In this document: one piece after another, positions 10,870 to 26,915 of the stretch
Numbering within the stretch: position 1 is the first letter of the stretch
How the letters are laid out: every line of letters starts with the position of its first letter
Source: Myxococcales bacterium
GTDB lineage: Bacteria > Myxococcota_A > Polyangia > Polyangiales > Ga0077539
Direction: 5' to 3'
Assembly (NCBI GenBank): GCA_013298625.1
Contig: JAAFIF010000035.1
Span: 1-64,000, forward strand
Length of the DNA: 64,000 nucleotides
Translations under genes and position numbers: made by a program
Notes under the pieces: generated by a model
Seen by the model: the letters and a program-made list of their open reading frames with translations, nothing else
The model's database searches: none
What the model was told of the DNA's origin: nothing

Positions 10870-11062
10870 CCTGCAGGCTCTTCGCGCCGCCGACGAACCC
10901 CTCGGGGTGTCAGTCGGGCGGCGTACGGAGCGGGTCGAGACATTTTGGCAAACGATCCGACGGGGGAGGATCGAGCGCGCGGCACTCAAGACCGGGTCAG
11001 GTCCGAGAAGGGTCGCTGGCACGGCTGCCGCAAGAGCAGCGTGTGATCGAGGACATGGAGTG

Positions 11063-12070
11063 ATGCAGAAGCTCTGGTCGTATGTGGAGTTGATCCTTCG
11101 AAGGCATCCCTGGGCGGTCACGCTCGTGGCGATGATCCCGTGCGCGTTCTTCAGCGCGGCGATGGTCAACAACGTGCTCGCGGCCAACGTGTTCAAGGCG
11201 GACGTCGCGTCGCTCTCTCGTCCGGGCGGGTCGGTGCCCTTCGAAGCGCAGCAGCGCTCGGGTTCGCAGACGTTTCGCTCGCGCGACACCGACGGAATCC
11301 TTCGTCGCAACCTGTTCGACGCGGACTCTGGGTGCTTGAACTGCCCGCCGCCGATCCCCGAGACGCCCGACGCTGGCCCCGAGGCGGACGACACCAGCCC
11401 GCCGATGCCCTGCGACGGCACCGTCAAGATCATGGGCGCGGTCGAGTCGGACGACCCGACGTGGTCGTTTATCTTCGCTGCGACCGCGGCCGGCGCGCCG
11501 ACGATGCCCTTTCGCCTCGGGCAGACGTTGGACACGAAGACCGTGGCCTCGATCGGCTGGGCGCAGGACTACGGCGCGTACGTGATCCTTCGGCCAGGCA
11601 GCGGACCGCGCTGCTTCTACGCGCAGGTGATGCCGCCACGGCAAGCGACGCCTGCGCCGGTGGCCGTGGCGACCGCCGTCGCGACCGCGGCGGAGCCGGG
11701 CGACAGCCTCTCGCAGATCCTCGAGTCGGGGATCACCCGCGACGGGCCCAACCAGTTTTCTCTCCGTCGAAACACGGTCGATCGCATCCTCGAGAACCAG
11801 GCCGAGCTCATGCGCACGACGCGCGTGATGCCGCACACCGAGGGCGGGCGCATCGTGGGTCTCACGATGTTCGGGGTCCGGCAGAACAACCTGCTCGGTC
11901 GCATCGGCATGCAAAACGCCGACGTTCTCACGCGGATCAACGGGCTCGAGATCGCCTCGCCAGACAAGGCGCTCGAGGCGTACGCGCGCCTGCGCTCGGC
12001 GGATCGACTGACCATCTCGGTGCTGCGCAACGGCCAGCCCGTGAACATCGACTTCAATATTCGTCCCTGA
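11063..12070 (+). CDS. gspC: Type II secretion protein GspC
   Basis: GspC links the inner-membrane platform to the outer-membrane secretin. The 335-residue product has a short cytoplasmic N-terminus, one membrane helix at about 14-38 and a periplasmic HR-type domain (VKIMGAVESDDPTWSFIFA...) at about 115-190. A C-terminal PDZ domain at about 255-335 includes IVGLTMFGVRQNNLLGRIGM and ILTRINGLEI-like strands. ATG 11063 is chosen because homology starts there; the frame is open to 10907 with no plausible protein. It is the first gene of the gsp operon, so the promoter should lie in 10870-11062. The Cys pair CLNC in the linker may form a disulfide. Confidence 0.9.
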   Translation: MQKLWSYVELILRRHPWAVTLVAMIPCAFFSAAMVNNVLAANVFKADVASLSRPGGSVPFEAQQRSGSQTFRSRDTDGILRRNLFDADSGCLNCPPPIPETPDAGPEADDTSPPMPCDGTVKIMGAVESDDPTWSFIFAATAAGAPTMPFRLGQTLDTKTVASIGWAQDYGAYVILRPGSGPRCFYAQVMPPRQATPAPVAVATAVATAAEPGDSLSQILESGITRDGPNQFSLRRNTVDRILENQAELMRTTRVMPHTEGGRIVGLTMFGVRQNNLLGRIGMQNADVLTRINGLEIASPDKALEAYARLRSADRLTISVLRNGQPVNIDFNIRP

Positions 12071-12118: not shown

Positions 12119-14614
12119 GTGAAGCTCCGAACCGCTGCCGCCCTCGTGCTCGTCTCGCTGATGACCTTTGTCGCGAGCCTGTCCGTGGCGCAGACCCGAC
12201 CCCGACCCGGGCAGATCCTGCCTGGCCTTCGCCCCAACAACACGCTGCCGCCGCTCTCGCAGTTTACGCAGGGCGCCGCAGGCGCGAGCGGCGCTGCGGG
12301 CGGCACAGCCCCTGCGGGCACCGGCGTGGCAGGGCAGCCGAACCTCCGCGAGTTCGAAGGCGGAATCGACTACCAGCCGCTGCCCGCGGGCGCGCGCATC
12401 ACGTTCAACCTTCAGGACGCGGACCTGCCCGACCTGGTGCGCGCGATCGGTAATATCACCGGTCGTCGCTTCATCATTTCGGGCAAGGCGCGGTCGATCA
12501 AGGCGACGATCTACTCGCCGACGAAGGTCTCTCCCGCCGAGGCGTACCAGGCGTTCTTGAGCGTCTTGTCGACGAACGGGATGACCGTGGTCCCTTCGGG
12601 CCGCTACCTGAAGATCGAAGACAGCGCGGGCATCGCGACGCAGCCGGTCCCGCTGTACGGCGCGGGCGAGCAGGCGCCGAGCGAGGATCGCTTCGTCACG
12701 CGCATCCACCGGTTGCGCAACATGACCGCTGAAAACGCCGCGCAGCTGCTGGGCCACTTCAAGTCTCAAGCGGGCGACATCACGCCGTACGCGGCGAGCA
12801 ACACCGTGGTGATCACGGACACGGGCGCGAACATCCGCCGCATGATGCAGATCCTCGCCGAGGTGGACTCTCCCTCGATCGGCGAGCAGATCTGGGTCGA
12901 GCGCTTGCAGTACATCGCCGCGAGCGAGGCCGTTCAGCGCATCAACGAGATCCTCGGGACGACCGCCGGCGCGGCCGCGGCCGCGGCGACGGGGCCGGGC
13001 TCGGACAACAGGCTCGTGCGGCTCGTGGCCGAAGAGCGCAGCAACTCGCTGATGATCGTGGCGACCGAGCGGATGTACCAGCGGGTGCTCGAGCTGATTC
13101 GCGTGCTCGATCGTCCGAGCGCCCAAGAGGGCGGAAACATCCACGTGTACGCCGTGCAGCACGCGGACGCCGAAGAGCTCGCGAACACGGTGAACAACAT
13201 CGTGTCGGGCGGTCGTCAGGCAGGCCAGGCCGCCGGGCAGCGCGGCGCGGCGACGGTGTTCGAAGGGGCGATCCGCATCACGGCGGACAAGCGCACCAAC
13301 TCGATCATCGTGACGAGCACCGAGCGCGACTTCATTGAAGTGCGGGTGATCCTCGAGAGGCTCGATCGTTCGCGGCGGCAGGTGTTCATCGAGGCCGCGG
13401 TGATGGAGCTCGAGGTCACCAACGGAAACCAGTTCGGCGTGAGCTTTCACGGCGGCGGGCAGCTGACGAACTTCTTGGGCATCCCTGGCGCGACCATCCC
13501 GCTCGGCGGATTTCAAGCGCAGAACTCCATCGCGTTTCCCGCGTCGCAAGAGCTGTTGACGGGCCTCGCGCTCGGCGTGCGCGGCCCGGCGATCCCCAAC
13601 CTCAACCTCGGAATCCCTGGATTTACCCTGGGTATCCCCGCGTTCGGCATCGTCCTGCGCGCGCTCGCCGAGAGCGGCGACGCCGACGTGCTCGCGACGC
13701 CGTCGATCATCGCGACCGACAACGAGCCGGCGGACATCAACGTCGGCGCCAACATCGCGCTGCAGAACAACGTCGGCGGCGGAAACCTGGCGGGCGCCGC
13801 TGGTCAGGCGGGCGCAGCGGGGCTCGGGTTGCTCGGCGCGTTCGGCGGCTTCTCTGCGCCGCGCGGCGACGTCGGGACGAAGATCCGCATCGTCCCGCAC
13901 ATCAACGACTCGAACGAAGTGCGCTTGGAGATCGACGAAGAGATCTCTGAAGCGGGCGCGGCCGAAGGCGCGCTGGGCGTCGTTCCGATCAACCGACGCA
14001 CGGCCAAGACCAAGGTGGTCGTGCAGGACCAGCAGACGGTCGTGATCGGCGGGCTCATCCGCAACTCGGTCCGCCGCAGCACGACGCGCATCCCGATCCT
14101 CGGCGACCTCCCGTTGATCGGCGCGCTGTTTCGCACGGAGAACCGCCGCGTCGAGCGCCGCAACCTCCTGCTCTTCATGACCCCGTACGTGATCCGCGAC
14201 CAGAGCGACCTGCGGCGCATCTTCGAGCGCAAGATGCGCGAGCGTCAGGAGTTTCTCGATCGCTACTTCGTGATGTCCTCCAACTCCGAAGTGCGCCCCG
14301 AGGTGGACTACTCGCGCACCAACGGCCTGGTCGAAGAGATCCGTCAGGCGATTCGGCAACAGCGCGAAGAGCAAGAGCGCGAGCTGCTGAGCCTCGAGCG
14401 CGCGCCGCCTCCGCATCGACCGGCCGCGCCGCTCGAGCTGCCGCCCGGGCCCCTCGGCGCGAGCGGCGGCGCAGCGGCGGGGCCGTCGGTGTCCGCGACC
14501 ACGACGCTCGCGCCCGACGTCAACGGCTCGACCAGCGTGAGCACCACCGCGCCTGCGGCGCTCCCGATTCGACTCCCGCTTCTGCGCGGACCAGCGGCGC
14601 CTCCGCCTCGCTGA
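12119..14614 (+). CDS. gspD: Type II secretion secretin GspD
   Basis: GspD forms the multimeric outer-membrane channel through which folded proteins leave the cell. The 831-residue product starts at GTG 12119 behind AAGGA and has a signal peptide ending near AVAQ-type residues (SLSVAQT). A Gly/Ala linker follows, then the N0 domain (ITFNLQDADLPDLVRAIG), three N-domain repeats and a secretin core from about residue 440 with VVIGGLIRNSV, IPILGDLPLIGALF and LLLFMTPYVI. The C-terminus is a Pro/Ala/Ser-rich tail of about 85 residues. No pilotin gene is nearby. Confidence 0.95.
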   Translation: MKLRTAAALVLVSLMTFVASLSVAQTRPRPGQILPGLRPNNTLPPLSQFTQGAAGASGAAGGTAPAGTGVAGQPNLREFEGGIDYQPLPAGARITFNLQDADLPDLVRAIGNITGRRFIISGKARSIKATIYSPTKVSPAEAYQAFLSVLSTNGMTVVPSGRYLKIEDSAGIATQPVPLYGAGEQAPSEDRFVTRIHRLRNMTAENAAQLLGHFKSQAGDITPYAASNTVVITDTGANIRRMMQILAEVDSPSIGEQIWVERLQYIAASEAVQRINEILGTTAGAAAAAATGPGSDNRLVRLVAEERSNSLMIVATERMYQRVLELIRVLDRPSAQEGGNIHVYAVQHADAEELANTVNNIVSGGRQAGQAAGQRGAATVFEGAIRITADKRTNSIIVTSTERDFIEVRVILERLDRSRRQVFIEAAVMELEVTNGNQFGVSFHGGGQLTNFLGIPGATIPLGGFQAQNSIAFPASQELLTGLALGVRGPAIPNLNLGIPGFTLGIPAFGIVLRALAESGDADVLATPSIIATDNEPADINVGANIALQNNVGGGNLAGAAGQAGAAGLGLLGAFGGFSAPRGDVGTKIRIVPHINDSNEVRLEIDEEISEAGAAEGALGVVPINRRTAKTKVVVQDQQTVVIGGLIRNSVRRSTTRIPILGDLPLIGALFRTENRRVERRNLLLFMTPYVIRDQSDLRRIFERKMRERQEFLDRYFVMSSNSEVRPEVDYSRTNGLVEEIRQAIRQQREEQERELLSLERAPPPHRPAAPLELPPGPLGASGGAAAGPSVSATTTLAPDVNGSTSVSTTAPAALPIRLPLLRGPAAPPPR

Positions 14615-14673: not shown

Positions 14674-16470
14674 ATGCAACAGAACCTTCGATTCGTCGGA
14701 GAAATCCTCAAGCGCGCGGGAACGATCGACCCCGAGGCGATCGACGAGCTCGTCTCGAGCCTCGAGCGCGAGGGCCGCGGCGCGCGCCTGTCCGACGCCC
14801 TGGTGCGCTCGGGCAAGAGCGACGAAGAGACCATCGCGCAGGCGCTCGGCGAGGGCTTCGGGATGCGCGTGCAGCTCGAAGTGCAGAACGAGAAGATCCC
14901 GCTGAATTTCCTCACTGAAAAAGCGCTCGACTTCGGCTTCGCCCGCGCGCACCAGATGCTCCCGCTCTACTTCGAGGGAGACCTCGTCGTCGTGGGCGTC
15001 GCGGATCCGCTCGACACCTGGGGCTTGGACGACCTGCGCGAGCGGCTCGGGTTCGAGCTCGACCCAGTCGTGGTCCCGGCCACGAAGCTCATGGACTTGA
15101 TTTCGTGGGCGCAGACGCAGATCGAGCGCGCCGGCCACCTGCAGGACGACGGCAGCAACGCCGAGCCTGACGAGATCCGCCAAGAGATCCTCGAGAGCGA
15201 CGACGACGCGCAGATCATCCGCTGGGTGAATTCGCTCTTCGTCGAGGCGCTCAAGGACCGCGCGACGGACATCCACGTGCAGCCGGACGACAATCAAGTG
15301 ACGGTGCGCTTTCGCGTGGACGGCGATCTTCGAGAGGTCCGCACGACGCCGAGGCGGTTTCTTCCGGCGCTGGTCGCGCGCATCAAGGTGCTCTCGGGGC
15401 TCAACATCGCCGAGAAGCGGCTGCCGCAAGACGGGCGCTACGGCTTCAAGATGGGCGGCAAAAACGTGGACATCCGCGTCTCGACGATCCCCATCGGCAA
15501 CGAGCGCGGCGAGCGCGTCGTGATGCGAATCCTCAACAAGTCGTCGATCCAGCTCAGCCTGACGGACCTCGGCTTCTCGCCGGACCGCCTCTCGCTGATC
15601 CACAGCTTGATCGAGCAGCCGCACGGGATCGTGCTGGTCACGGGGCCGACGGGCTCGGGCAAGACGACGACGCTGTACGCTTGCTTGAACCGCATCAACC
15701 GCGCGGATTTGAACATCCTGACCGCCGAGGACCCGATCGAGTACGACCTGCGCGGGATCTCGCAGATGCAGGTCAACTCGAAGATCGGACTGACGTTCGC
15801 CTCGTGCTTGCGCGCGTTCTTGAGGCAAGACCCGGACGTGATCATGGTCGGCGAGATCCGCGACAAAGAGACCGCTGAGATCGCGGTGCAAGCGTCGCTG
15901 ACGGGCCACCTCGTGCTCTCGACCATTCACACCAACGACTCTGCGGGAGCGCTCACGCGCCTGGCGGAGATGGGGATCGAGAGCTTTCACATCGCTTCGA
16001 CGCTGCAGGCGGCGCTCGCGCAGCGGCTCGTTCGCACGCTGTGCCCGCACTGCAAAGAGCGGTATCTCACGAGCGAGCAGGACTGGGCGCGGCTGGGCTT
16101 GGACCGCGCGCGGGCGATTCAGCGCGTCACGGCGGCGCGCACGAAGTACGGCGCGAGCGCGTTCGGCGGATCTCCCGCGGGCGCGTTGCTGCACGAGATG
16201 GCGGAGGGGCGTCGCGTGACGGCGTTTCGCGCGGTCGGGTGCCCGAAGTGCCAGGGCGTAGGGTTCTCGGGGCGCACAGGGATCTACGAGCTGTTGCTCG
16301 TGACCGACGCGGTGCGCGGGCTGGCGTTGAAGAGCGCTGACAGCGTGACGATGCGCCGCGCGGCGGTCGAAGAGGGCATGGACACCTTGCGCGACGACGG
16401 CGCGCGCAAGGTGCTCGAGGGAACGACCACGATCGAAGAGGTCCTCGCGGCGACGCAGGACGAGCACTGA
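14674..16470 (+). CDS. gspE: Type II secretion ATPase GspE
   Basis: GspE is the hexameric cytoplasmic ATPase that powers pseudopilus assembly. The 598-residue product has an N-terminal T2SSE_N domain, a central PAS-like region, Walker A GPTGSGKTTT at about 324-333, an Asp box, Walker B (VIMVGEIRDKETAEIA) and the His box. The tetracysteine zinc motif is present as CPHC and, after an unusually long insertion of roughly 55 residues, CPKC followed by GRTGIYELL. It starts 60 bp after gspD. Confidence 0.96.
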   Translation: MQQNLRFVGEILKRAGTIDPEAIDELVSSLEREGRGARLSDALVRSGKSDEETIAQALGEGFGMRVQLEVQNEKIPLNFLTEKALDFGFARAHQMLPLYFEGDLVVVGVADPLDTWGLDDLRERLGFELDPVVVPATKLMDLISWAQTQIERAGHLQDDGSNAEPDEIRQEILESDDDAQIIRWVNSLFVEALKDRATDIHVQPDDNQVTVRFRVDGDLREVRTTPRRFLPALVARIKVLSGLNIAEKRLPQDGRYGFKMGGKNVDIRVSTIPIGNERGERVVMRILNKSSIQLSLTDLGFSPDRLSLIHSLIEQPHGIVLVTGPTGSGKTTTLYACLNRINRADLNILTAEDPIEYDLRGISQMQVNSKIGLTFASCLRAFLRQDPDVIMVGEIRDKETAEIAVQASLTGHLVLSTIHTNDSAGALTRLAEMGIESFHIASTLQAALAQRLVRTLCPHCKERYLTSEQDWARLGLDRARAIQRVTAARTKYGASAFGGSPAGALLHEMAEGRRVTAFRAVGCPKCQGVGFSGRTGIYELLLVTDAVRGLALKSADSVTMRRAAVEEGMDTLRDDGARKVLEGTTTIEEVLAATQDEH

Positions 16471-16478
16471 GGGCAGCG

Positions 16479-17807
16479 ATGGCGGTCTTCGCGTACACCG
16501 GCGTCAACGACAAGGGACGCACCGTCCGAGGGACGATCGACGCGGACAGCGAGAAGTCCGTGCGTCAGCTCTTGCGCAAGCAGGGCGTGTACGTCGAAGA
16601 GACCCGCGCGCTCGCCGGCGACGGAAAGAAAGCGGCCAGCGCCGCGGCTGCCGCTGCGTCGAGCGCCGCTGCGAAGTCCAAGATCGGCGGCGCGCGCGCG
16701 CTCGCTGCGCTGGGCGCGGTGTCGAGCACGCCCACCATCGAGGCCATCGTCAGCGCGATCAAGAAGGCGGCGTCGAGCGCGCAGCGGCACGTGGCCGTGG
16801 CGACCCGGCAGCTCGCGACCCTGCTGAAGGCAGGGATTCCGCTGCCCGAAGCGCTCTCTGCGGTGACCGAGCAGATCGATCACAAAGAGCTGCAAGCGGC
16901 CTTCGAGCTGGTGGGGACGAAGGTGCGCGAGGGCATCTCCTTCGCGAAGGCGCTCGAGGAGCACCCGAACTTCTTCGAGCCGCTGTTCATCAACATGGTG
17001 GCGGCGGGCGAGGCGTCGGGCAACCTCGAGGGCGTCCTCGCGCGGCTCGCGGAGTTCATCGAAGCGCAGGTGAAGCTCAAGGGAAAGATCACAGGCGCCA
17101 TGGCCTACCCGGCCTTCATGGCGATGTTCGGCTCGCTGATCATCGGCGTGCTGATGGTGGTCGTGGTGCCGAAGGTGTCCGCGATCTTCTCGGATTTTCA
17201 GAAGACCCTGCCCTGGTACACCGAGCTGCTCATCGCCGTGTCCGGCTTCTTGGGCCGCTGGTGGTGGCTGCTCATGCTCTTGGCGATGGTGGGCTTGGGC
17301 TTCTTCATCCGCTGGAAGCGCACGCCCGAGGGCGCCTACCGCTGGGACGAGATCGTCCTGCGTCTGCCGATGTTCGGCGAGCTGGCCAAGCTCGTGGCGG
17401 TCACTCGCTTCACGCGCACCCTGGCGACGCTGCTCGCCTCGGGCGTGCAGCTCGTGAAGGCCATGGAGATCGTGAAGAACGTCCTCGGAAACCGCGTGCT
17501 CGAAGCAGTGGTGACCGACGCGACGGTGAGCATCAAAGAGGGCGAGAGCATTTCTGAGCCGCTCAAGCGCTCGGGGCGCTTCCCCAAGCTCGTCGTGCAA
17601 ATGATCGCGATCGGCGAGCGCTCGGGCGACCTCGAGGGCATGCTGGTGGCGGTGAGCGACAACTACGACGGGATCATCGACGCGCGAGTGACGCTGCTGA
17701 CGAGCATGCTCGAGCCCATGATGATCGCCGCCATGGGAGGGACCGCCGCGGCTGTGGCGTTCTCGATCTTGATGCCCCTGATGCAGCTCAACGAGTTCGT
17801 GCAGTGA
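16479..17807 (+). CDS. gspF: Type II secretion inner-membrane platform protein GspF
   Basis: GspF is the polytopic platform protein that couples GspE to pseudopilin insertion. The 442-residue product starts with the usual FAYTGVNDKGRTVRGTIDADS segment, carries two GspF domains and has three strong membrane helices (about 215-240, 255-275 and near the C-terminus 410-430). It is longer than the usual ~405 residues because of an Ala/Lys/Ser-rich insertion at about residues 48-105 between the N-terminal segment and the first GspF domain. It is 9 bp behind gspE. Confidence 0.95.
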   Translation: MAVFAYTGVNDKGRTVRGTIDADSEKSVRQLLRKQGVYVEETRALAGDGKKAASAAAAAASSAAAKSKIGGARALAALGAVSSTPTIEAIVSAIKKAASSAQRHVAVATRQLATLLKAGIPLPEALSAVTEQIDHKELQAAFELVGTKVREGISFAKALEEHPNFFEPLFINMVAAGEASGNLEGVLARLAEFIEAQVKLKGKITGAMAYPAFMAMFGSLIIGVLMVVVVPKVSAIFSDFQKTLPWYTELLIAVSGFLGRWWWLLMLLAMVGLGFFIRWKRTPEGAYRWDEIVLRLPMFGELAKLVAVTRFTRTLATLLASGVQLVKAMEIVKNVLGNRVLEAVVTDATVSIKEGESISEPLKRSGRFPKLVVQMIAIGERSGDLEGMLVAVSDNYDGIIDARVTLLTSMLEPMMIAAMGGTAAAVAFSILMPLMQLNEFVQ

Positions 17808-17816
17808 GCGTGGGTG

Positions 17817-18239
17817 ATGGCGAAGCGAAGCGAGTCACGACTGTTGTTTCCGTGGGAGACGCCCGGCGAGGGCGCGCTTCGACGGGCGCGTCGTGCGGCG
17901 CGGCCGGCGCTGATCGTGGGCGCGCTGCTCTTCGCGCTGTACTCGCTGGGCAACGTGCACCGTCAGCATCGGGCCGAGTTCGCGACGCGCGCGGCGATCT
18001 CGACGGTGCTTCGCGCGGTCGAAGCGTATCGGGCGGATCACGGCGGGCGGTGCCCCGCGAGCCCGGACATGCTCGTGGCGCCGCCGGACGGCGTGCAGCC
18101 GTACCTGCGCAAGGTCCCCAACGACGGCTGGGGTCGGCCGCTGCGCGTGCTCTGTCCCGGGCGCAAGAACCCAGAGATCGCCGACGTCACGTCGGCCGGG
18201 CCCACGGGCAGCTTCGAGGATCCCAGGCAGGTCGAGTAG
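17817..18239 (+). CDS. GspG-like protein lacking the prepilin processing site
   Basis: A 140-residue protein with one membrane helix at about 29-47. Its periplasmic part aligns by eye with the following GspG: AVEAYRADHGGRCP against LAQQYYTEHRDSCP, NDGWGRPLRVLC against TDEWGKPFVIVC, and DVTSAGP against DVTSSGP. There is no Gly-x4-Glu prepilin peptidase site before the helix, and the N-terminus (LLFPWETPGEG) is unlike any pilin leader, so it should stay anchored in the inner membrane. GTG 17814 is an alternative start. It lies between gspF (10 bp) and gspG in the same operon. The role is inferred: an accessory to the pseudopilus or platform. Confidence 0.75.
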   Translation: MAKRSESRLLFPWETPGEGALRRARRAARPALIVGALLFALYSLGNVHRQHRAEFATRAAISTVLRAVEAYRADHGGRCPASPDMLVAPPDGVQPYLRKVPNDGWGRPLRVLCPGRKNPEIADVTSAGPTGSFEDPRQVE

Positions 18240-18347: not shown

Positions 18348-18794
18348 ATGAACACTGCGAAGAGCACGGCGCGCGAGCGGGCGCGCAAGGGAGCGCGTCG
18401 GATCCGCAAGCTGCTGCTGAGCAAGGCGCGCGCGGGCCTCACGCTCATCGAGATCATGATCGTGATCGCGATCATCGCGATGATCGGCGGCGGCGTGACG
18501 TTCGCGTTTCAGCAGCAGCGTCGGGCGCAGGCCAAGACGACGAAGACCAACGCGATGCAGCTTCGCTCGCTGGCGCAGCAGTACTACACCGAGCATCGCG
18601 ACTCGTGTCCGACGGTGCAGGCGCTGATCTCTGCGGGCGAGATGGACACGCGGTCGAAGACCACGGACGAGTGGGGCAAGCCCTTCGTGATCGTGTGCAA
18701 CGGCGAAGATCTCGACGTGACCAGCAGCGGCCCGGACGGGCAGCAGGGCACGGGCGACGACATCACCACCGCGGCGCGCCCCGCGGCGAACTGA
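18348..18794 (+). CDS. gspG: Type II secretion major pseudopilin GspG
   Basis: GspG is the main pseudopilus subunit, processed by prepilin peptidase. The product has a long basic leader, the cleavage motif ARAG followed by LTLIEIMIVIAII (Glu at +5), one hydrophobic helix, and the globular GspG domain with a Cys pair (DSCP, VIVC) and a DDITT C-terminus typical of the calcium-binding loop region. I choose ATG 18348, 8 bp behind AGGAG; ATG 18342 and upstream in-frame codons are alternatives. The 108 bp between the previous gene and this start may hold an internal promoter, as the major pilin is needed in excess. Confidence 0.93.
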   Translation: MNTAKSTARERARKGARRIRKLLLSKARAGLTLIEIMIVIAIIAMIGGGVTFAFQQQRRAQAKTTKTNAMQLRSLAQQYYTEHRDSCPTVQALISAGEMDTRSKTTDEWGKPFVIVCNGEDLDVTSSGPDGQQGTGDDITTAARPAAN

Positions 18795-18813: not shown

Positions 18814-19587
18814 ATGATCCCCCGCGCGCGAACGAGCGAGACGACGAGCAGAGCCCGAGGCGGCTCTCTGTCGTCGCTGCGCGCGCGGTGGCTGGGTCGG
18901 TCGCGGGGGCGGTCGCGGGCGGGCATGACGCTGATCGAGATCATGATCGTCGTGGCGATCATGGGGATGCTCGCCTCGGGCGTGCTCTTCGGGCAGGGCG
19001 CGCTGCCGCGGGCGCGGCTGCGCACGAGCTGCATGCGGCTCGCGGCGGCGTATCGCTTCGCCTACGTGCACGCGCTGACGAGCGGAAAGACCACGCGCGT
19101 GAGCTTTCCCCTCGGCGGCGCGCGGATCAGCGTCGAAGAGAGCGACGACGCGATGCAGCTCGACCCGCGCGACCCGCTGCGTGCGGGCGGCGCCGAGGCG
19201 ATCGAAGCCGCTGCGGTGCAGCAAGCGGACGCGATTCAGAACCTTCGTCCCAGGGCTCCGCGCGCGCAGTTTACGGCGATTTCGGGGGCGCGCTTTCGTC
19301 CGCGGGACCTCGACGAGGGCATCACCGTCGCGCGGCTCTACAGCCAGCACGACGAAGAGGCGCGCACCGAAGGCTCGGGCCACGTGTACTTCTTCGCCGG
19401 CGGTCAGGCGGAGCGCGCGGTGGTTCACCTTCGCAACGGACGCGGCGATGTCTTCTCGATCGTGCTCGACCCGATGACGGGCCGCGCCGAGGTCTTCGAC
19501 CGCGCCGTCGAGCCGCCGGCTCCAGAAGAGCGCGAAGAGAACGAGACGGACTCGCGCGAGCGAGTGTTTCGCGAGGTGTCGCAGTGA
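18814..19587 (+). CDS. gspH: Type II secretion minor pseudopilin GspH
   Basis: A 257-residue pseudopilin with a long Arg/Ser-rich leader of 37 residues and cleavage motif SRAG followed by MTLIEIMIVVAIMG (Glu at +5). The beta-rich globular domain includes FPLGGARISVEES and a GHVYFFAGGQAERAVVHL strand pair typical of GspH/FimT domains. It is longer than the usual ~170-190 residues because of the leader and an acidic C-terminal tail. The stop overlaps the gspI GTG start, so translation is coupled. Confidence 0.9.
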   Translation: MIPRARTSETTSRARGGSLSSLRARWLGRSRGRSRAGMTLIEIMIVVAIMGMLASGVLFGQGALPRARLRTSCMRLAAAYRFAYVHALTSGKTTRVSFPLGGARISVEESDDAMQLDPRDPLRAGGAEAIEAAAVQQADAIQNLRPRAPRAQFTAISGARFRPRDLDEGITVARLYSQHDEEARTEGSGHVYFFAGGQAERAVVHLRNGRGDVFSIVLDPMTGRAEVFDRAVEPPAPEEREENETDSRERVFREVSQ

Positions 19588-20459
19588 TCCCCGCGCGCGA
19601 CGAAGAGCGAGAGGCGGCGCTGCGCGACCGCGTGCGCGCGCGGCGCAAGGCGCTCGGCGTGACGGTGCTCGGCTTCACGCTGCTCGAGGTGATGATCGCG
19701 ACGGCCATCTTGGCGATGGGGCTCGCGTCGGTGTTCGGCAGCAACGTGATCGCGGCGCGGCGCGTTGCGCACGGCCGAATGATCACGCAAGCCACGTTGG
19801 TCGGTCAGTGCCGGATGACACAGGTCGAGGCGTGGCTGCGTAAGAACCAGCTTCCGCAGACCGATCAGCGCGTGGACGATCCGCCGGACATGGGCGGGGC
19901 GCGCTGCTGCGAGGCCCCGTTCACGTGCGAGGCCAACGTCGACAAGATCGAGCTGCCGAGCCCGCCCCAGGTCAACGCCGACGCGACGAGCCAGCTCATG
20001 AACACCGCGTCGAGCGCCCTCTCGGGGACGCAGTTCGGCGGCGCCGGCGGCGCAGCGGGCGGGGCTGCGGCCAACCCGTTGACGGCGCTCGCGGGTGCCC
20101 TCGGCGGCTTGGGCGGCGCGGGCGGCGCGGCGCCGGGGCAGGGCGCGATGGGCTCGGGCTCGGGCGCGCCAGACATGCGCGGTGCGCAGGGCGCGATCCT
20201 CGCGGGGATCTACCCGTCGCTCAAGCCGCTGCTCGAAGGCGCGATCCGTCGCGTGACCGTGCGCGTGGCCTGGCAAGAGGGGGCGCGAGATTTCTCCTTT
20301 GATCTCGTGCAGTACGTGACCAACCCGGGGCAGACGTTGCAGTCGGGCGCGGCGATGCCGGGAGTCCCGCAGGACGCGCTCAACGGATTGCTCAACGCCG
20401 CGGGCGGGGCTGCGGGCGGGGCTGCGGGCAGCGCGGTGCCAGGGATGGGGATCCGATGA
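19584..20459 (+). CDS. gspI: Type II secretion minor pseudopilin GspI, enlarged
   Basis: A 291-residue pseudopilin. The leader ends in LG, followed by FTLLEVMIATAILAMG (Glu at +5), then the typical AARRVAHGRMITQATLVGQCRM segment. The usual GspI is ~120-130 residues. Here the globular domain is split by a Cys-rich patch (RCCEAP, FTCE) and a Gly/Ala-rich low-complexity stretch (about residues 150-200), and the protein ends in a second Gly/Ala-rich tail. The conserved strand VRVAWQEGARDFSFDLVQYV lies after the insertion. It starts at GTG 19584 inside the gspH stop and overlaps gspJ by 4 bp. Confidence 0.88.
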   Translation: MIPARDEEREAALRDRVRARRKALGVTVLGFTLLEVMIATAILAMGLASVFGSNVIAARRVAHGRMITQATLVGQCRMTQVEAWLRKNQLPQTDQRVDDPPDMGGARCCEAPFTCEANVDKIELPSPPQVNADATSQLMNTASSALSGTQFGGAGGAAGGAAANPLTALAGALGGLGGAGGAAPGQGAMGSGSGAPDMRGAQGAILAGIYPSLKPLLEGAIRRVTVRVAWQEGARDFSFDLVQYVTNPGQTLQSGAAMPGVPQDALNGLLNAAGGAAGGAAGSAVPGMGIR

Positions 20460-21190
20460 AGACCACGCGACTTGAAAACGTGGGTCTCGTGAAGCGACGC
20501 GCGCGCGCGGGCATGACCCTGCTCGAAGTGATCGTCGCGACCGCGGTCTTCGCGATGATGGGCTTGATGTTGCTCACGGCGTTTACGCACACCGGGCGGA
20601 TGCGCGACCGGTTGAGCTCGCGCATGGATCGAGACCACCAGGCGCGCACGGCGGTGATGCGCTTGTCGCGCGACCTGCGCGGGGCGTTTCTGTCCGCGCA
20701 CGTCAACGGCGTGAACCCTGGGCAGAACAACGTGCTGACGGCGTTCGTGGCGCGCGAGGGGCTCAACGGGGACAACCTCGAGCTGACGGCGTTTACCCAT
20801 CGCCGGCTGCGTCGCGGCGCGCACGAAGGGGACGCGTGCGAGGTCGGCTACAGGGTGATGGAGCGCCGCGGCGCGCAGCGGACGACGTACGACCTGATGC
20901 GCCGCGAGACGACGCGGATCGACAACGAGCCGCAGCGGGGCGGCGCGCTCGACGTGCTCGCGCAGGACGTCACGCTGTTCGACCTGAAATTCTACGACGA
21001 GACCTCCACCCAGTGGATCGAGAGCTGGAACACCACCAGCGCCACCGGCCAGCCCGCGCGCCTCCCGCAGCGCGTGCGCATCACGATCGAGCTGCGGGAC
21101 GAGGGCGAGCGTCGGCGTCGCTACAGCACCGAGACGCCGGTGATGATCCAGTCGATGTTGCGCTTCGGGCTCGGGCTCGATTGGCGCTGA
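20456..21190 (+). CDS. gspJ: Type II secretion minor pseudopilin GspJ
   Basis: A 244-residue pseudopilin with leader KRRARAG followed by MTLLEVIVATAVFAMMG (Glu at +5). The GspJ domain has an ARTAVMRLSRDLRGAF segment and several beta-strands ending PQRVRITIELRDEGER. GspJ helps start pseudopilus assembly at the tip with GspI and GspK. The ATG overlaps the gspI stop (ATGA), and gspK follows 12 bp later. Confidence 0.92.
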   Translation: MKTTRLENVGLVKRRARAGMTLLEVIVATAVFAMMGLMLLTAFTHTGRMRDRLSSRMDRDHQARTAVMRLSRDLRGAFLSAHVNGVNPGQNNVLTAFVAREGLNGDNLELTAFTHRRLRRGAHEGDACEVGYRVMERRGAQRTTYDLMRRETTRIDNEPQRGGALDVLAQDVTLFDLKFYDETSTQWIESWNTTSATGQPARLPQRVRITIELRDEGERRRRYSTETPVMIQSMLRFGLGLDWR

Positions 21191-21202
21191 GAATCTACGG
21201 AC

Positions 21203-22705
21203 ATGTTGAATACTGAGCACCACGACCCAGCGCCGGACACGGCCCCCGCGACGAGCGTCGTTCGCGCGGGGCGCGGGCGCGCGCGGCGGGCCAAGGCGCG
21301 CAAGCGTCGGGCCCGCAGCGAGCGCGGCGTGGCGCTGCTCATGGTGCTCACCTCCGTGGCGCTCTTGTACGTGATGGCGCAGCAGACGCGGGACGAGGTC
21401 GAGGTCTCGTACGCCGCCGCGGCGACGGGGCGCGATCAGCTTATCGCGCACTACGAAGCGAAGAGCGGGATCAACCTCGCGCGCTTGCTGTTGCACGCAG
21501 AGCCCACGATTCGCCGCGCGATCATGGTGTCGCTCGGGCCGCTGATGGCGATGTTCGGCGGGCCGCCGGGGCAGATCCCTGTGTGGGAGCAAGCGGACAC
21601 GCTGTTCGGAGCGTTTCGTCGCGAGGGCGGGACGCGCGCGCTCGTCGAGAGCTTCGGCGTGAGCGAGCAGGGCGCGAAGAACCTGGGCGGACTGCGCGGC
21701 GCCGATCCGATCTTGATCGTCGACGAGGACTCGAAGATCAACGTCAACGGCTCGTATCGCGGCGCCGAAGTGTCTCGACGCGAGGCCGCGCGCCTCGTGG
21801 GCCTCACGGCCAACCCCGGCTACGAGCCGCTGTTTTCGCAGCGCGACGCGGACGGGCAGTTCACCGATCGCTCGACGCTCTTGCGCGAGATCATCGATTA
21901 CTCGGACGCTGACCAGACCGGCTTCGACATCGGTCAGCTGCTCACCAACAACGTCGCTGGACCGAGCGCGGGCGGCCCCGAGGACAACTTCTATTCTTCT
22001 CTGCGGCCGAGCTATCCCCGAAAGAACGCGCCGTTCGACTCGGTCAACGAGCTGCGGATGGTGCGCGGCCTCGGCGACGACGACCTGTGGAGCGCGATCG
22101 TCGATCCCGATCCGAGCAACCCGCGCCGTCGCAACCTGACCGTGTGGGGCTCTGGGCAGGTCAACGTCAACACGGCCAACGCGCAGACGCTGCTCGCGCT
22201 CATCTGCGCCTTCGGCCGAACGAACCTCGCGTGCACGGACCCCACGGCGGCGCGGCGCTTCACCACGGGCATCACCATGGTGCAGGGCTTCACGCTCTCG
22301 ATGGGGCTGCCGATCTTCGGCTCGGCGCAGATGTTCACGGCGACGCTGCAAGGGCGCGGGATGCTCGGGCAGCTGTTCAAGACCATGGCGGGCGATCAGC
22401 CCATCGTGATCGCCGACGCGGCGGGGCTCGAGCGAGCGATCACCGTCGAGTCCAAGGTGTTCAGCGTGTTCGCCTCGGCGCGCGTGGGGCTGTCGTACAC
22501 GCGCATCCACGCGGTGATCGACATGCGCCCGCAGCCGCAGATCGACAGCACGTTTCTTCGAGTGACGACGGGCGGGAGCGATGTTCCGCAGACCGCGCCG
22601 GTCGTCGATGCCACGCGCAACAACGGTCTGGTGCAGGGGCCCGCGGGCTCGGTGCAGCAGGTCGACGAGCGCGGCGGCACCATCATCTACTGGCGAGAGG
22701 ACTGA
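21203..22705 (+). CDS. gspK: Type II secretion pseudopilus tip protein GspK
   Basis: A 500-residue protein with a basic leader ending SERG, then a hydrophobic helix (VALLMVLTSVALLYVMAQQ). It lacks the +5 Glu, as is typical of GspK, which caps the pseudopilus. The large alpha-helical domain follows (IAHYEAKSGINLARLLL, DSKINVN, FDSVNELRMVRGLGDDDLW), with a helix-hairpin-like FNS...ELR region and VNVNTANAQTLLALI. It is longer than the usual ~320 residues, with added sequence in the middle (MAMFGGPPGQIPV) and C-terminus. It sits between gspJ and gspL. Confidence 0.92.
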   Translation: MLNTEHHDPAPDTAPATSVVRAGRGRARRAKARKRRARSERGVALLMVLTSVALLYVMAQQTRDEVEVSYAAAATGRDQLIAHYEAKSGINLARLLLHAEPTIRRAIMVSLGPLMAMFGGPPGQIPVWEQADTLFGAFRREGGTRALVESFGVSEQGAKNLGGLRGADPILIVDEDSKINVNGSYRGAEVSRREAARLVGLTANPGYEPLFSQRDADGQFTDRSTLLREIIDYSDADQTGFDIGQLLTNNVAGPSAGGPEDNFYSSLRPSYPRKNAPFDSVNELRMVRGLGDDDLWSAIVDPDPSNPRRRNLTVWGSGQVNVNTANAQTLLALICAFGRTNLACTDPTAARRFTTGITMVQGFTLSMGLPIFGSAQMFTATLQGRGMLGQLFKTMAGDQPIVIADAAGLERAITVESKVFSVFASARVGLSYTRIHAVIDMRPQPQIDSTFLRVTTGGSDVPQTAPVVDATRNNGLVQGPAGSVQQVDERGGTIIYWRED

Positions 22706-22717
22706 GAAGGCTCGGCG

Positions 22718-24226
22718 ATGGCCCTGTATCTCGGAATCGAATTGAGTGAAGGACAGCTCCGCGTCGTGAGACTGCGCGGGCAGTACCGAAAGCTCGCGAT
22801 CGAGGCGATCTACCGCCTCCCGCGCGAGCCCGGCCCCGACGGCATCACCATGGCTGCGCAAGCCATCCGCGCCTCGCTCCCGCAGACGCCCGACGGAGTC
22901 TTCGTCGCCGTCCAAGGCAGCGACGTCTCCTTGCGCCCGCTCTCTCTGCCCAAGGCGCTCTTGCGCCGCGGACCGAAGGTGCTCGCGGCCGAGCTCGACG
23001 GGCAAATCCCCTTCGAAATCGACTCTGCCGTCATGGACGCGCAGGTCGTTCGCGACGGAGAAGTGTCCGAGCTCATCGCCGCTGCGACCCGCGTCGAGCG
23101 CGTTCGAGCCGTCATCGACGCCTTCAAAGCCGCCGACCTCGAGCCGCGCGAAGTGGGCGTGATGCCCCTCGCGCTCGGCGAGCTCTCGTCGGCCTTCGTC
23201 GAGCTCAACTCCGCGGACCCCATCCTGCTCTTGCACGCGTACGAAGGCCGCGCGGACGTGTGCGTGATCGCCAACGGACGCACGCAGTTCGCAAGGACCA
23301 TCACAGGGCAGAACACCCCCGCCGTCCGCGAGCGCTCGGTCCGTCAGTCCCTCGGCGCGCACCTCGCGTCCGGCGGCAGCTCCGTCGTCACCGCGTACCT
23401 GTTCGGCGAAGACGGCCACTTGTTTCAAGAAGCCGTCGAGAAGGCCTCGGGGCTCGATGTCACCGCGGTGCGCATGTACCCGCCGGCGGGCACCGTCGCG
23501 CTCGCTCCCGAGGTCAACCCCGAAGAGCTTCGCCTGGTGCCCACGGCGCTCGCGCTCGCCATGCGAGGCGTGTCCAAAGCGTCCCGCATCGACCTTCGCA
23601 AAGGCCCCCTCGAGCTCAAGGGCAACACCACCATCCTGCGCGAGCGCGCGCCGATGTTGGCCATGCTCGCCGGCGCGGTGATGCTCACGTGGGTGGGCGC
23701 GACCGCGGCTCGCTACTACGCCAGCGCCTCCGAGCGCGACCGGCTCACGTCCGCGCTCGCGCTCGTCACGCAAGAGGTCTTCGAAGAGCGCATCACCGAC
23801 CCGCAGCAAGCCATCGCAAAGGCCCGCGGAACTGGCGAAATGCTGCAAGACCCGCTGCCGCCAGCGGACGCCTTCGACGTCATCGGGACCATCTCGTCGA
23901 AGATCCCCGAAGGCACACGAAATCATGACATCACGCAGCTCGAGGTCAGCGACGAGCGCGTGCAAGTGCAGGGAATCGCGGCGACCGTGCAGGACCGAGA
24001 CAGCATCGTCGAGGCGCTCAAGACGTACGAGTGCTTTCCCACGGTGACGCCGGGGCGCACGCAGGCGAACCCCGGCGACGGTCGACAGCAATACACGTTG
24101 GACGTCGAGTTTCGCTGCCCCGGCCGCGCGTCGAGCGCGCGCAGGCCCGGCGCTGCGGCGGCCACCACCGCTGGCAACAACACGGGCTCGAGCAGCGGCG
24201 CGGGAGGCTCCAGTGGCAGCAACTGA
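22718..24226 (+). CDS. gspL: Type II secretion platform protein GspL (PilM-like)
   Basis: GspL recruits GspE to the membrane. The 502-residue product has an actin-like cytoplasmic domain (MALYLGIELSEGQLRVVRLRG at the start; LLHAYEGRADVCVIANG in the middle), one membrane helix at about 310-332 (MLAGAVMLTWVGATAARYY) and a periplasmic ferredoxin-like domain. A Gly/Ser-rich tail closes it. It overlaps gspM by 14 bp, in keeping with the L-M pair acting together. Confidence 0.9.
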   Translation: MALYLGIELSEGQLRVVRLRGQYRKLAIEAIYRLPREPGPDGITMAAQAIRASLPQTPDGVFVAVQGSDVSLRPLSLPKALLRRGPKVLAAELDGQIPFEIDSAVMDAQVVRDGEVSELIAAATRVERVRAVIDAFKAADLEPREVGVMPLALGELSSAFVELNSADPILLLHAYEGRADVCVIANGRTQFARTITGQNTPAVRERSVRQSLGAHLASGGSSVVTAYLFGEDGHLFQEAVEKASGLDVTAVRMYPPAGTVALAPEVNPEELRLVPTALALAMRGVSKASRIDLRKGPLELKGNTTILRERAPMLAMLAGAVMLTWVGATAARYYASASERDRLTSALALVTQEVFEERITDPQQAIAKARGTGEMLQDPLPPADAFDVIGTISSKIPEGTRNHDITQLEVSDERVQVQGIAATVQDRDSIVEALKTYECFPTVTPGRTQANPGDGRQQYTLDVEFRCPGRASSARRPGAAAATTAGNNTGSSSGAGGSSGSN

Positions 24227-24860
24227 TTCACTTCGCGCAGCGGTCGCGGGCCTCTCGGAGAAAGACAAGCGGCAGCTCTCGATCCTCGGCGCGGTCCTCG
24301 CGCTCGGGCTCGTGTTCGGTTTGTGGCTCTTGTCCTACGCGCTGCTCAGCAACCTCGAGTCCGAGCGCTCTGCGACGCTCGACGCGCTGCGGGTGATCCG
24401 CACCGAGCGCGCGCGGATTCGGCAACGCCAGCAGTCGCGGGCGCAGATCCTCTCGCGCTACGAGCAGCACGCGCCTGCGCTCGGCGGCTTCATCGAGCAA
24501 GCCGCGCGAACGGCGCAGGTGACGGTGAGCGAGACCAACGACCGCCCTGTGCAGCGCGTAGACGCGGGCCGCTTCGAGCGCCGATCGGTCTCGATCCGCG
24601 TGCGCAGCGTGACGCTGCAGGCGCTCGTGGCGTTCATGGCGCAGATCGACAACGCGCCGTTTCCCGTGGCGATCACGACGCTGCGGCTGCGCAAGCGCTT
24701 CAACGAGAGCAACAACTACGACGTCGACGAGATGGTGATCACGACGTTCGATCGCGTCGTGCGCGCAGGCGAGCGACGCGCGGGAGCGGACGGCGGCGTC
24801 GCGGCGCCCGCGAGCAGGCCGACGGTCGTGGCCATTCCATCCGCGGGAGCTGCACGGTGA
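24213..24860 (+). CDS. gspM: Type II secretion platform protein GspM
   Basis: A 215-residue protein with a short cytoplasmic N-terminus, one membrane helix at about 24-45 (ILGAVLALGLVFGLWLLSYALL), a coiled-coil-like stretch rich in Arg/Gln and a small periplasmic domain ending in a strand that contains DEMVITTFDRV. This matches GspM, which stabilises GspL at the platform. The start overlaps gspL and the stop overlaps the gspN GTG. Confidence 0.87.
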   Translation: MAATDSLRAAVAGLSEKDKRQLSILGAVLALGLVFGLWLLSYALLSNLESERSATLDALRVIRTERARIRQRQQSRAQILSRYEQHAPALGGFIEQAARTAQVTVSETNDRPVQRVDAGRFERRSVSIRVRSVTLQALVAFMAQIDNAPFPVAITTLRLRKRFNESNNYDVDEMVITTFDRVVRAGERRAGADGGVAAPASRPTVVAIPSAGAAR

Positions 24861-25906
24861 ACGAGCGCACTCGAGAGATCGCGATGAAGGCGCTGCGGTA
24901 CCTGGGGTACCCGGCGTTCTTCTTCTTTTTCTTTCTGCTCTTTGTGTACTGGACGTTTCCGTACGACCGGCTCAAAGAGTTCATCATTCACCAGGCAGAA
25001 GCGCCGCGCGCGACCGGGGCAGGGACCGTCGCGCCGTCGAACATGCAGCTCGAGATCGACGAGCTCGGACCCACGTTCTTCCCGGGCCTGAGCGCGCGCG
25101 GGGTGCGCCTCACGTGGCTCCCGCAGCAGGCAGGGCAGCGGCCGATCACCGCGCGCATGGAGCGCGTGACCGCGCACGTGAGCTTGTTCGGTCTGCTCTT
25201 CGGCCGCGCCAACGGAGACCTGTCGATCGAGGGCATGGGCGGCACGGTCGAAGCGAGCTTTCAGAGCACGTTCAGCGGGACGCGCCCTGGGCTTCGCAAG
25301 CTCAAGCTCGAGATGAAGGGCGTGCGCGCCAACGAGGTCGGGCCGCTCGTTCAGGCGATCGGGCTGCCCGTCCAGGGACGGCTCGACACCACGATCGAGC
25401 TCGAGGTGCCCGACGGTCAGGTCAACCGCGCGTCCGGGACCGCGTCGCTCTCGATCGCTGGCCTCAAGATCGGCGACAACGTCGCGCAGTTTCAGATCCC
25501 AGGCTTCGGCGGCGTGACCATCGCCCAGATCGACGCCGGAACGCTCGCCGGTCAGGTCTCGATCCGCGACGGCAACGCCAACATCGAGCGCATCGGCGCG
25601 CGCTCGCGCGACCTCAACCTCGCGCTGAGCGGCCGCGTCGAGCTGCGCCCGGACCCCGCACAAACGGGCATCAACCTGCTGACGCGGTTTCAGCTCACCG
25701 ACGCGTTTCGCACGAAGAACGAGCAGGCGGGGCGAATCATGATGGTTCTCGACATGGTTCCCGACCTGCGCGCGGCGCGGGGCGCGGACGGGATGATCGC
25801 GCTTCGGTGCCGCGGCACCGCGGGGCGCGGCGTTCGATGCGCGGCCGAAGGGGCGAGCGGCGCGGCCGAAGCGGGCGGCTTCGGCGAGCCTCGTCGCGGG
25901 TTCTGA
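24857..25906 (+). CDS. gspN: Type II secretion protein GspN (delta-proteobacterial type)
   Basis: A 349-residue protein starting at GTG 24857 within the gspM stop. It has one N-terminal membrane helix of unusual Phe-rich make-up (about residues 18-34, FFFFFFLLFVYW) followed by FPYDRLKEFI, the usual GspN opening. A long periplasmic beta-rich domain follows with MQLEIDELGPTFFPGLSARGVRL and repeated AsmA-like strands. GspN is an accessory subunit in delta-proteobacterial secretion operons. It is the last gene of the operon and converges on 25915-26745, 8 bp away. Confidence 0.88.
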   Translation: MNERTREIAMKALRYLGYPAFFFFFFLLFVYWTFPYDRLKEFIIHQAEAPRATGAGTVAPSNMQLEIDELGPTFFPGLSARGVRLTWLPQQAGQRPITARMERVTAHVSLFGLLFGRANGDLSIEGMGGTVEASFQSTFSGTRPGLRKLKLEMKGVRANEVGPLVQAIGLPVQGRLDTTIELEVPDGQVNRASGTASLSIAGLKIGDNVAQFQIPGFGGVTIAQIDAGTLAGQVSIRDGNANIERIGARSRDLNLALSGRVELRPDPAQTGINLLTRFQLTDAFRTKNEQAGRIMMVLDMVPDLRAARGADGMIALRCRGTAGRGVRCAAEGASGAAEAGGFGEPRRGF

Positions 25907-26745: not shown

Positions 26746-26915
26746 CGCGGAGGTGTCGAGGGCGCGACGTGCTGTACGTCGAGTGCTGCAGTGTGCGTCG
26801 GTGAGCGATGCGCTTCGCCGACCCCTCCGTCGCGAGAGACCAGCATCGCAAACGCACCGAGAGCGTGCCGGCGAATTCGGGGGACACGGACGGGTGCGGT
26901 AGAGTCTGTTTCGCG

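Follow-up and report, generated by a model that had tools for sequence, protein, structure and literature searches.

A conserved GspG paralogue without a prepilin cleavage site between gspF and gspG in type II secretion operons of a myxobacterial order

The gene at positions 17817-18239 of the window (the whole 64,000-nucleotide stretch of DNA that was analysed) encodes a paralogue of the major pseudopilin GspG that has no prepilin cleavage site. This protein, referred to as X below, is real, conserved and apparently undescribed within the open-access literature searched. Its lack of the motif is not a chance oddity; the gene is found repeatedly at this position in related type II secretion system (T2SS) operons. 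As to its function, the reading that we favour, with somewhat less than even confidence, is that the T2SS assembly platform of this order, and of some near families, contains X as a fixed subunit that derives from GspG and does not polymerise.

X is located within a complete T2SS operon with the gene order gspC-D-E-F-X-G-H-I-J-K-L-M-N and is flanked by gspF and gspG, in agreement with the initial annotation, which had placed it inside a secretion operon. The identities of the operon genes were taken from Pfam and NCBIfam; E, F, G, H, I, J, K, L and M are below the NCBIfam cut-offs, M being the weakest. The features are as follows (+, plus strand):

10907-12070 (+): gspC (NCBIfam GspC_delta over cut-off; the match begins at ORF residue 65 and the true start may lie downstream)
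12119-14614 (+): gspD, secretin (over cut-off)
14674-16470 (+): gspE, ATPase (609 bits, just below the curated cut-off of 630; Pfam)
16479-17807 (+): gspF, inner-membrane platform protein (Pfam; NCBIfam 411 bits, just below the cut-off of 424)
17817-18239 (+): X, GspG paralogue without prepilin cleavage site, 140 aa (ORF, Pfam T2SSG, ortholog alignment, fold)
17817-17894 (+): predicted cytosolic tail of X, aa 1-26, net positive (hydropathy, charge)
17850-17858 (+): conserved PWE motif of X, aa 12-14 (alignment of 28 orthologues)
17895-17951 (+): transmembrane segment of X, aa 27-45 (hydropathy; within helix 18-74 of the AlphaFold2 model)
17982-18212 (+): periplasmic GspG (T2SSG) domain of X, aa 56-132 (Pfam)
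18153-18182 (+): signature loop of X, aa 113-122, from C113-P114, with Pro at W+9 (models, alignment)
18348-18794 (+): gspG, true major pseudopilin, without the signature-loop proline (Pfam, NCBIfam)
18435-18452 (+): prepilin motif G-LTLIE of gspG (Pfam N_methyl; sequence)
18814-19587 (+): gspH-like minor pseudopilin with prepilin motif (Pfam, NCBIfam)
19584-20459 (+): gspI-like minor pseudopilin with prepilin motif (NCBIfam, Pfam)
20456-21190 (+): gspJ (Pfam, over cut-off)
21203-22705 (+): gspK (Pfam, over cut-off)
22718-24226 (+): gspL-like (below the curated cut-off)
24213-24860 (+): gspM-like (weak, E=0.0029)
24857-25906 (+): gspN (over cut-off)

By eye, the N-terminal cytosolic part of the GspF encoded at 16479-17807 contains an Ala-rich insertion of about 50 aa (residues ~50-95). 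Directly 3' of the operon and on the same strand, two tandem and very similar proteins of repeated Cys-rich units were seen by eye at 26808-29225 and 29198-31543 of the window; as a guess, these could be T2SS substrates.

The start of X is the ATG at 17817, with a GTG one codon upstream at 17814. Since the reading frame opens only 9 nt 5' of this ATG and gspF stops at 17807, which leaves 9 nt between the end of gspF and the start of X, no leader is hidden by the choice of start. A mis-annotated start or a frameshift masking a prepilin leader was rejected on the same ground, and the orthologues are of the same anatomy. In an alignment of 28 X orthologues, drawn from the best matches of one search, the N-terminus is net positive in all 28, with a single transmembrane segment, and it is more positive than the 15 residues following that segment in 25/28. 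Within the PWE motif, W13 is invariant (28/28), while P and E are each present in 26/28.

X was found to match the Pfam T2SSG family with E=3.8e-7 (30.6 bits, cut-off 21), and all 28 aligned orthologues give a T2SSG match (E 0.01). The NCBIfam GspG model TIGR01710 gave E=4.8e-7 and 29.9 bits for X, far below its cut-off of 88.85, which the true GspG of the operon likewise fails to reach with 37.5 bits. X and the neighbouring GspG are identical in 29 of 98 aligned columns (30%), including both Cys, the D-x-WG-x-P turn and DVTS-GP, the features by which the periplasmic part had earlier been aligned with GspG; that alignment is upheld, with T2SSG over its cut-off. An AlphaFold2 model of X, built with ten related X proteins, has a mean pLDDT of 82.9 and a pTM of 0.65 and contains one helix (residues 18-74) in which the transmembrane segment lies. 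When the model was compared with the PDB by Foldseek, the first 13 of the best 20 rows were GspG chains; the best match had E=1.2e-3 and prob 1.00, no row falling below 1e-3. VIA-align superposed the model on a Vibrio vulnificus pseudopilin with Z 10.1 over 90 residues at 2.2 Å; for a model of the operon's GspG made in the same way, Z was 10.5. A search of the PDB with a profile of 28 X proteins gave 11 matches, of which the best 8 are GspGs (top 1.5e-9). The predicted fold of X is that of GspG, a comparison that had been named beforehand as one by which the proposal could be refuted.

The Pfam N_methyl and NCBIfam TIGR02532 prepilin models match GspG, GspH, GspI and GspJ, but not X; they also fail on GspK of the same operon, so that a missing match proves little on its own. 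In an approximate register, obtained by ungapped counting back from the CP motif, positions +1 to +8 of the X orthologues hold 1-4 charged residues (R, K, H, D and E counted), mostly Arg, in 28/28, and their mean hydropathy is -0.97 compared with +2.06 in GspG seeds. Glutamate at +5 is present in 0/28 X orthologues versus 29/29 true GspG seeds, the latter having been chosen by a motif that itself requires E. A loose prepilin pattern was matched in 1/28 orthologues, as AWKAAE at residue 40 of the L018 protein; it is located at the far end of the transmembrane segment and was taken as a chance match. Two Peptidase_A24 genes are present in the same genome as X, indicating that prepilin processing was available. 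The absence of the Gly/Glu+5 motif and the replaced N-terminus, as first described, therefore stand (no E5 in 28/28, no prepilin-model match). The one transmembrane segment, the net positive N-terminus in 28/28 and the lack of E5 also speak for the earlier suggestion that X would stay in the membrane, and, as far as can be judged from sequence, X is probably uncleaved and membrane-retained.

The gene was matched in 54 of 57 close genomes. With the X profile at 1e-6, matches were obtained in 258/317 genomes of the class and in 214/377 of the phylum; outside the class, most of the matches listed start near profile position 30, and those inspected are true GspG. In the order, which we take to be the Polyangiales, about 168 of 183 genomes have X (a count of profile-search rows, with part of the 168 matches inspected individually), four are matched via GspG only and 11 are without a match. 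Among the 15 order genomes without an X match, nine are without a GspG match either, two (G193 and G211) have GspG at a contig edge, and three (G261, G272 and G286) have only GspG-like genes, with no operon neighbours in the stretch examined. In G035, a 99% complete genome of the order, gspF is directly followed by gspG with no X between them, which shows that X is not strictly required; the GspG of this genome (L072) is also without the loop proline discussed below. The protein of G286 (L078 1465-1890) is GspG-like and without a prepilin motif, with no gsp neighbour within the 3.4 kb stretch examined.

All 46 loci checked have the arrangement F-X-G on one strand; 39 of them belong to the order and 7 to three further families of the class. 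Absence of the gene from related operons had been put forward as a possible refutation, and these loci, together with the approximately 168 of 183 order genomes, show it to be present; X as a lineage-specific oddity was rejected, since it is conserved across the order. The survey covered one phylum, and the genomes read closely outside the order were a sample (28 and 24 genomes). The named carriers comprise Sandaracinaceae together with other MAGs of Myxococcales or Polyangia; at least some of the named loci, among them L038 (G055), belong to genomes already counted and are no extra evidence. The PWE tail is missing from X of families f26, f14 and f2 and of one f12 genus, and is hence not a general feature of X. 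In six pairwise comparisons among four close genomes, the dN/dS of X was 0.15-0.27, and the gene is under purifying selection; because upstream sequence from stop to stop was included for G, its dN/dS cannot be set against that of X.

A 'signature loop' with a conserved proline is described for GspG in a figure legend of PMC8134430, and alignment to PulG suggests that the loop bearing Pro at W+9 is the same one. This proline is present in X of 44/46 F-X-G operons and in the partner GspG of 0/46. It was found in 32/37 GspGs from operons without X (16/19 within the class) and in 4/4 from operons in which a motif-less copy lies 3' of gspG (F-G-X), together 36/41; the 48-aa row L057 was excluded from the loop counts. 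A second proline, at W-4, gives a less clean pattern: 36/46 in X, 0/46 in partner GspG, 21/37 in X-less GspG (7/19 within the class) and 4/4 in GspG of F-G-X operons. In the models, a ten-residue loop of X corresponds to a two-residue turn in the neighbouring GspG. The W+9 proline is also missing from 5/37 X-less GspGs, three of which (f23, f38 and f59) are from families where no X was seen, and from both f14 X proteins. As the rows are related and mostly from one clade, the counts represent few independent events. In F-G-X operons the proline is kept in both copies, which indicates that there is no division of labour via the signature loop in these operons. In the F-X-G operons, X thus retains conserved surface of GspG that was given up by the polymerising copy; the reciprocal loss of the loop suggests a division of labour, and this complementary loss names residues to mutate.

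Pseudopilus initiation and the hand-over of GspG from the membrane to the filament are poorly understood, and a conserved GspG that apparently cannot leave the membrane separates the recruitment surface from the polymerising part. In the reading that we favour, a gspG copy would have become X by losing its prepilin leader and its hydrophobic, E5-bearing start, and by gaining an Arg-rich cytosolic tail, with the PWE motif in most of the order. We infer that X goes uncleaved, stays in the membrane, takes up a basal position and has partners and a docking role there. It would stand in the inner membrane at the base of the pseudopilus, plausibly beside GspF, and its tail might dock on GspF, GspE or GspL, partners suggested by the gene order. 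The periplasmic domain of X would show the conserved GspG loop permanently, and could orient or recruit incoming GspG or hold another partner. X may thus serve as a fixed subunit for docking or orientation, having assumed a task that the GspG loop performs on the membrane side, and so have freed the piston GspG; according to this proposal, with the loop supplied by X, its loss from the operon's true GspG would have become possible.

Motif-less copies of GspG were also found in the F-G-X arrangement, in 4/41 other operons: L048 (family f16), L086 (f31), L127 (f44) and L049 (f48), of which L048 and L049 were picked because tandem matches had appeared. In this order, the copies are identical to their own GspG at 55/83, 38/80, 77/88 and 61/87 positions, and their identity to any core X is lower (29/83, 33/71, 25/73 and 31/78). 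In a 118-row tree, built without two truncated rows and nine near-duplicate loci, a branch with an SH-aLRT of 96, or 97 when only periplasmic columns were used, has all 37 included X proteins from F-X-G operons on the same side. A single origin of all motif-less copies was rejected, 41 X rows as one group being incompatible with the 118-row quick tree (p-AU 5e-39). On the 118-row quick trees, joining single copies to the core was not rejected (p 0.85 for L086, which is already beside the core on that tree, 0.40 for L048, 0.20 for L049 and 0.29 for L127), and neither was joining L048 when transmembrane columns were included (p 0.53); the quick search was too shallow, as some constrained trees outscored the free one. 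When a subset of 45 rows was analysed with a more careful method, each of the copies from f16, f44 and f48 formed a pair with the GspG of its own operon (100/92, 100/99 and 100/97, respectively). With this subset, joining to the core was rejected for L049 (p 0.0014) and L127 (p 0.0065) and was borderline for L048 (p 0.053), while neither the f31 copy (L086) nor the f14 X (L106) was settled as in or out of the core. X was united as one group in 0% of 200 bootstrap trees and needs 4-6 changes (bootstrap range); the tested groups were defined after the first tree had been seen. A separate origin of the f48 and f44 copies is shown, and that of the f16 copy is very likely. Hence, motif-less GspG copies have at least three origins in the phylum, probably four, and those of separate origin are natural replicates. 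These copies, the cytosolic PWE motif and the matching loop loss in the partner GspG go beyond the initial annotation.

The f48 copy (L049 5726-6172, genome G486), a tandem copy 3' of gspG, has GLTAVG at the processing site; a G-1-like leader is kept and E5 is replaced by G, which gives a hint of the way in which such genes arise. According to the title of Nivaskumar 2016, E5 is essential for recruitment by the platform. It is conceivable, although on the doubtful side, that the T2SS of this order has split GspG into a loop-stripped piston and a fixed, loop-bearing docking template, and that un-processable twins, having arisen at least three times and probably four or more in one phylum, reflect a general need, so far unrecognised, for a GspG that stays static at the base of the pseudopilus.

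Repeated origin would also fit the easy evolution of an antagonist, and X has been considered as a brake: resembling GspG but unable to polymerise, it would compete with GspG at the platform and restrict how long pseudopili grow or how often they are started. We regard this as unlikely. A GspG fold with neither E5 nor leader, the dispensability of X in G035 and the closeness of the F-G-X copies to their own GspG are all in line with it; however, a competitor should keep resembling its own GspG, and X and GspG are down to 30% identity and differ in the loop. Rather unlikely as well is a periplasmic adaptor, in which a tethered GspG domain would bind secreted substrates or connect GspC/GspD with the platform. 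The lineages with X secrete many proteins, and the periplasmic loop is kept in X and lost in GspG, but X is conserved at the same positions as GspG itself, with no added binding domain, and the cytosolic PWE motif would be left unexplained. Residues 16-136 of the X model align with residues 1-130 of PulG in the pseudopilus, and with its GspG fold X could be taken for a minor pseudopilin that enters the filament by an unusual route; this is very improbable, as the position of the buried N-terminus is Arg-rich and without E5 in 28/28, and judging from these residues entry of X into the filament is unlikely. Of the roles first proposed for X, to seed, cap or regulate the pseudopilus, a cap at the tip is unlikely too, since X has Arg-rich sequence in place of the segment with which pilins pack into the core of the filament. 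That X is a functionless, decaying relic of a gspG duplication, as its absence from G035 and the loss of the PWE tail in one f12 genus might suggest, is hardly credible in view of the order-wide conservation, the intact frames in the loci read, the low dN/dS and the invariant residues.

The fixed platform subunit proposed here can be compared with several known proteins. X is like GspG, PulG, EpsG and XcpT (PF08334, TIGR01710) in its periplasmic domain, its Cys, Pro, D-x-W and S-x-G positions, the signature loop, the fold and the place beside gspF, but differs in having no leader, no E5, an Arg-rich rather than hydrophobic N-terminus and a conserved cytosolic motif of its own. GspH-K are, like X, non-major subunits of the same operon with the pseudopilin fold; GspH, I and J here have prepilin motifs and K is without a model match, whereas in X both the leader and the hydrophobic start are missing. 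Cleavage of GspK takes place despite its lack of E5. The periplasmic domains of GspC, GspL and GspM are not known to be GspG-like; X, by contrast, is pseudopilin-derived. With these three proteins X shares a single-pass position in the inner membrane, as they are described as single-pass inner-membrane subunits of the T2SS platform in passages of PMC8134430 and in the platform list of PMC11981180. The mitochondrial T2SS, with GspG1 and GspG2, resembles the present case in having a second GspG paralogue (PMC8134430). The two were rejected as the same thing as X, since that paper states that the polar anchor and E+5 are retained in the GspGs of eukaryotes. No description of an un-processed GspG paralogue was found in the open-access literature, a weak negative result as subscription papers were mostly outside the search. 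Domain-based annotation of T2SS genes as 'GspG' can conceal proteins that are not pseudopilins.

Outside the operon, the genome that carries X also encodes, at G000:C85:86698-86868 (L002 1429-1923, minus strand), a protein with a GspG-like C-terminal domain and a lipoprotein-like signal (ATGAGC-K). It is absent from the T2SSG matches and is perhaps another repurposed GspG domain; further matches to it were found at G001:C78:142389 and G002:C452:2121.
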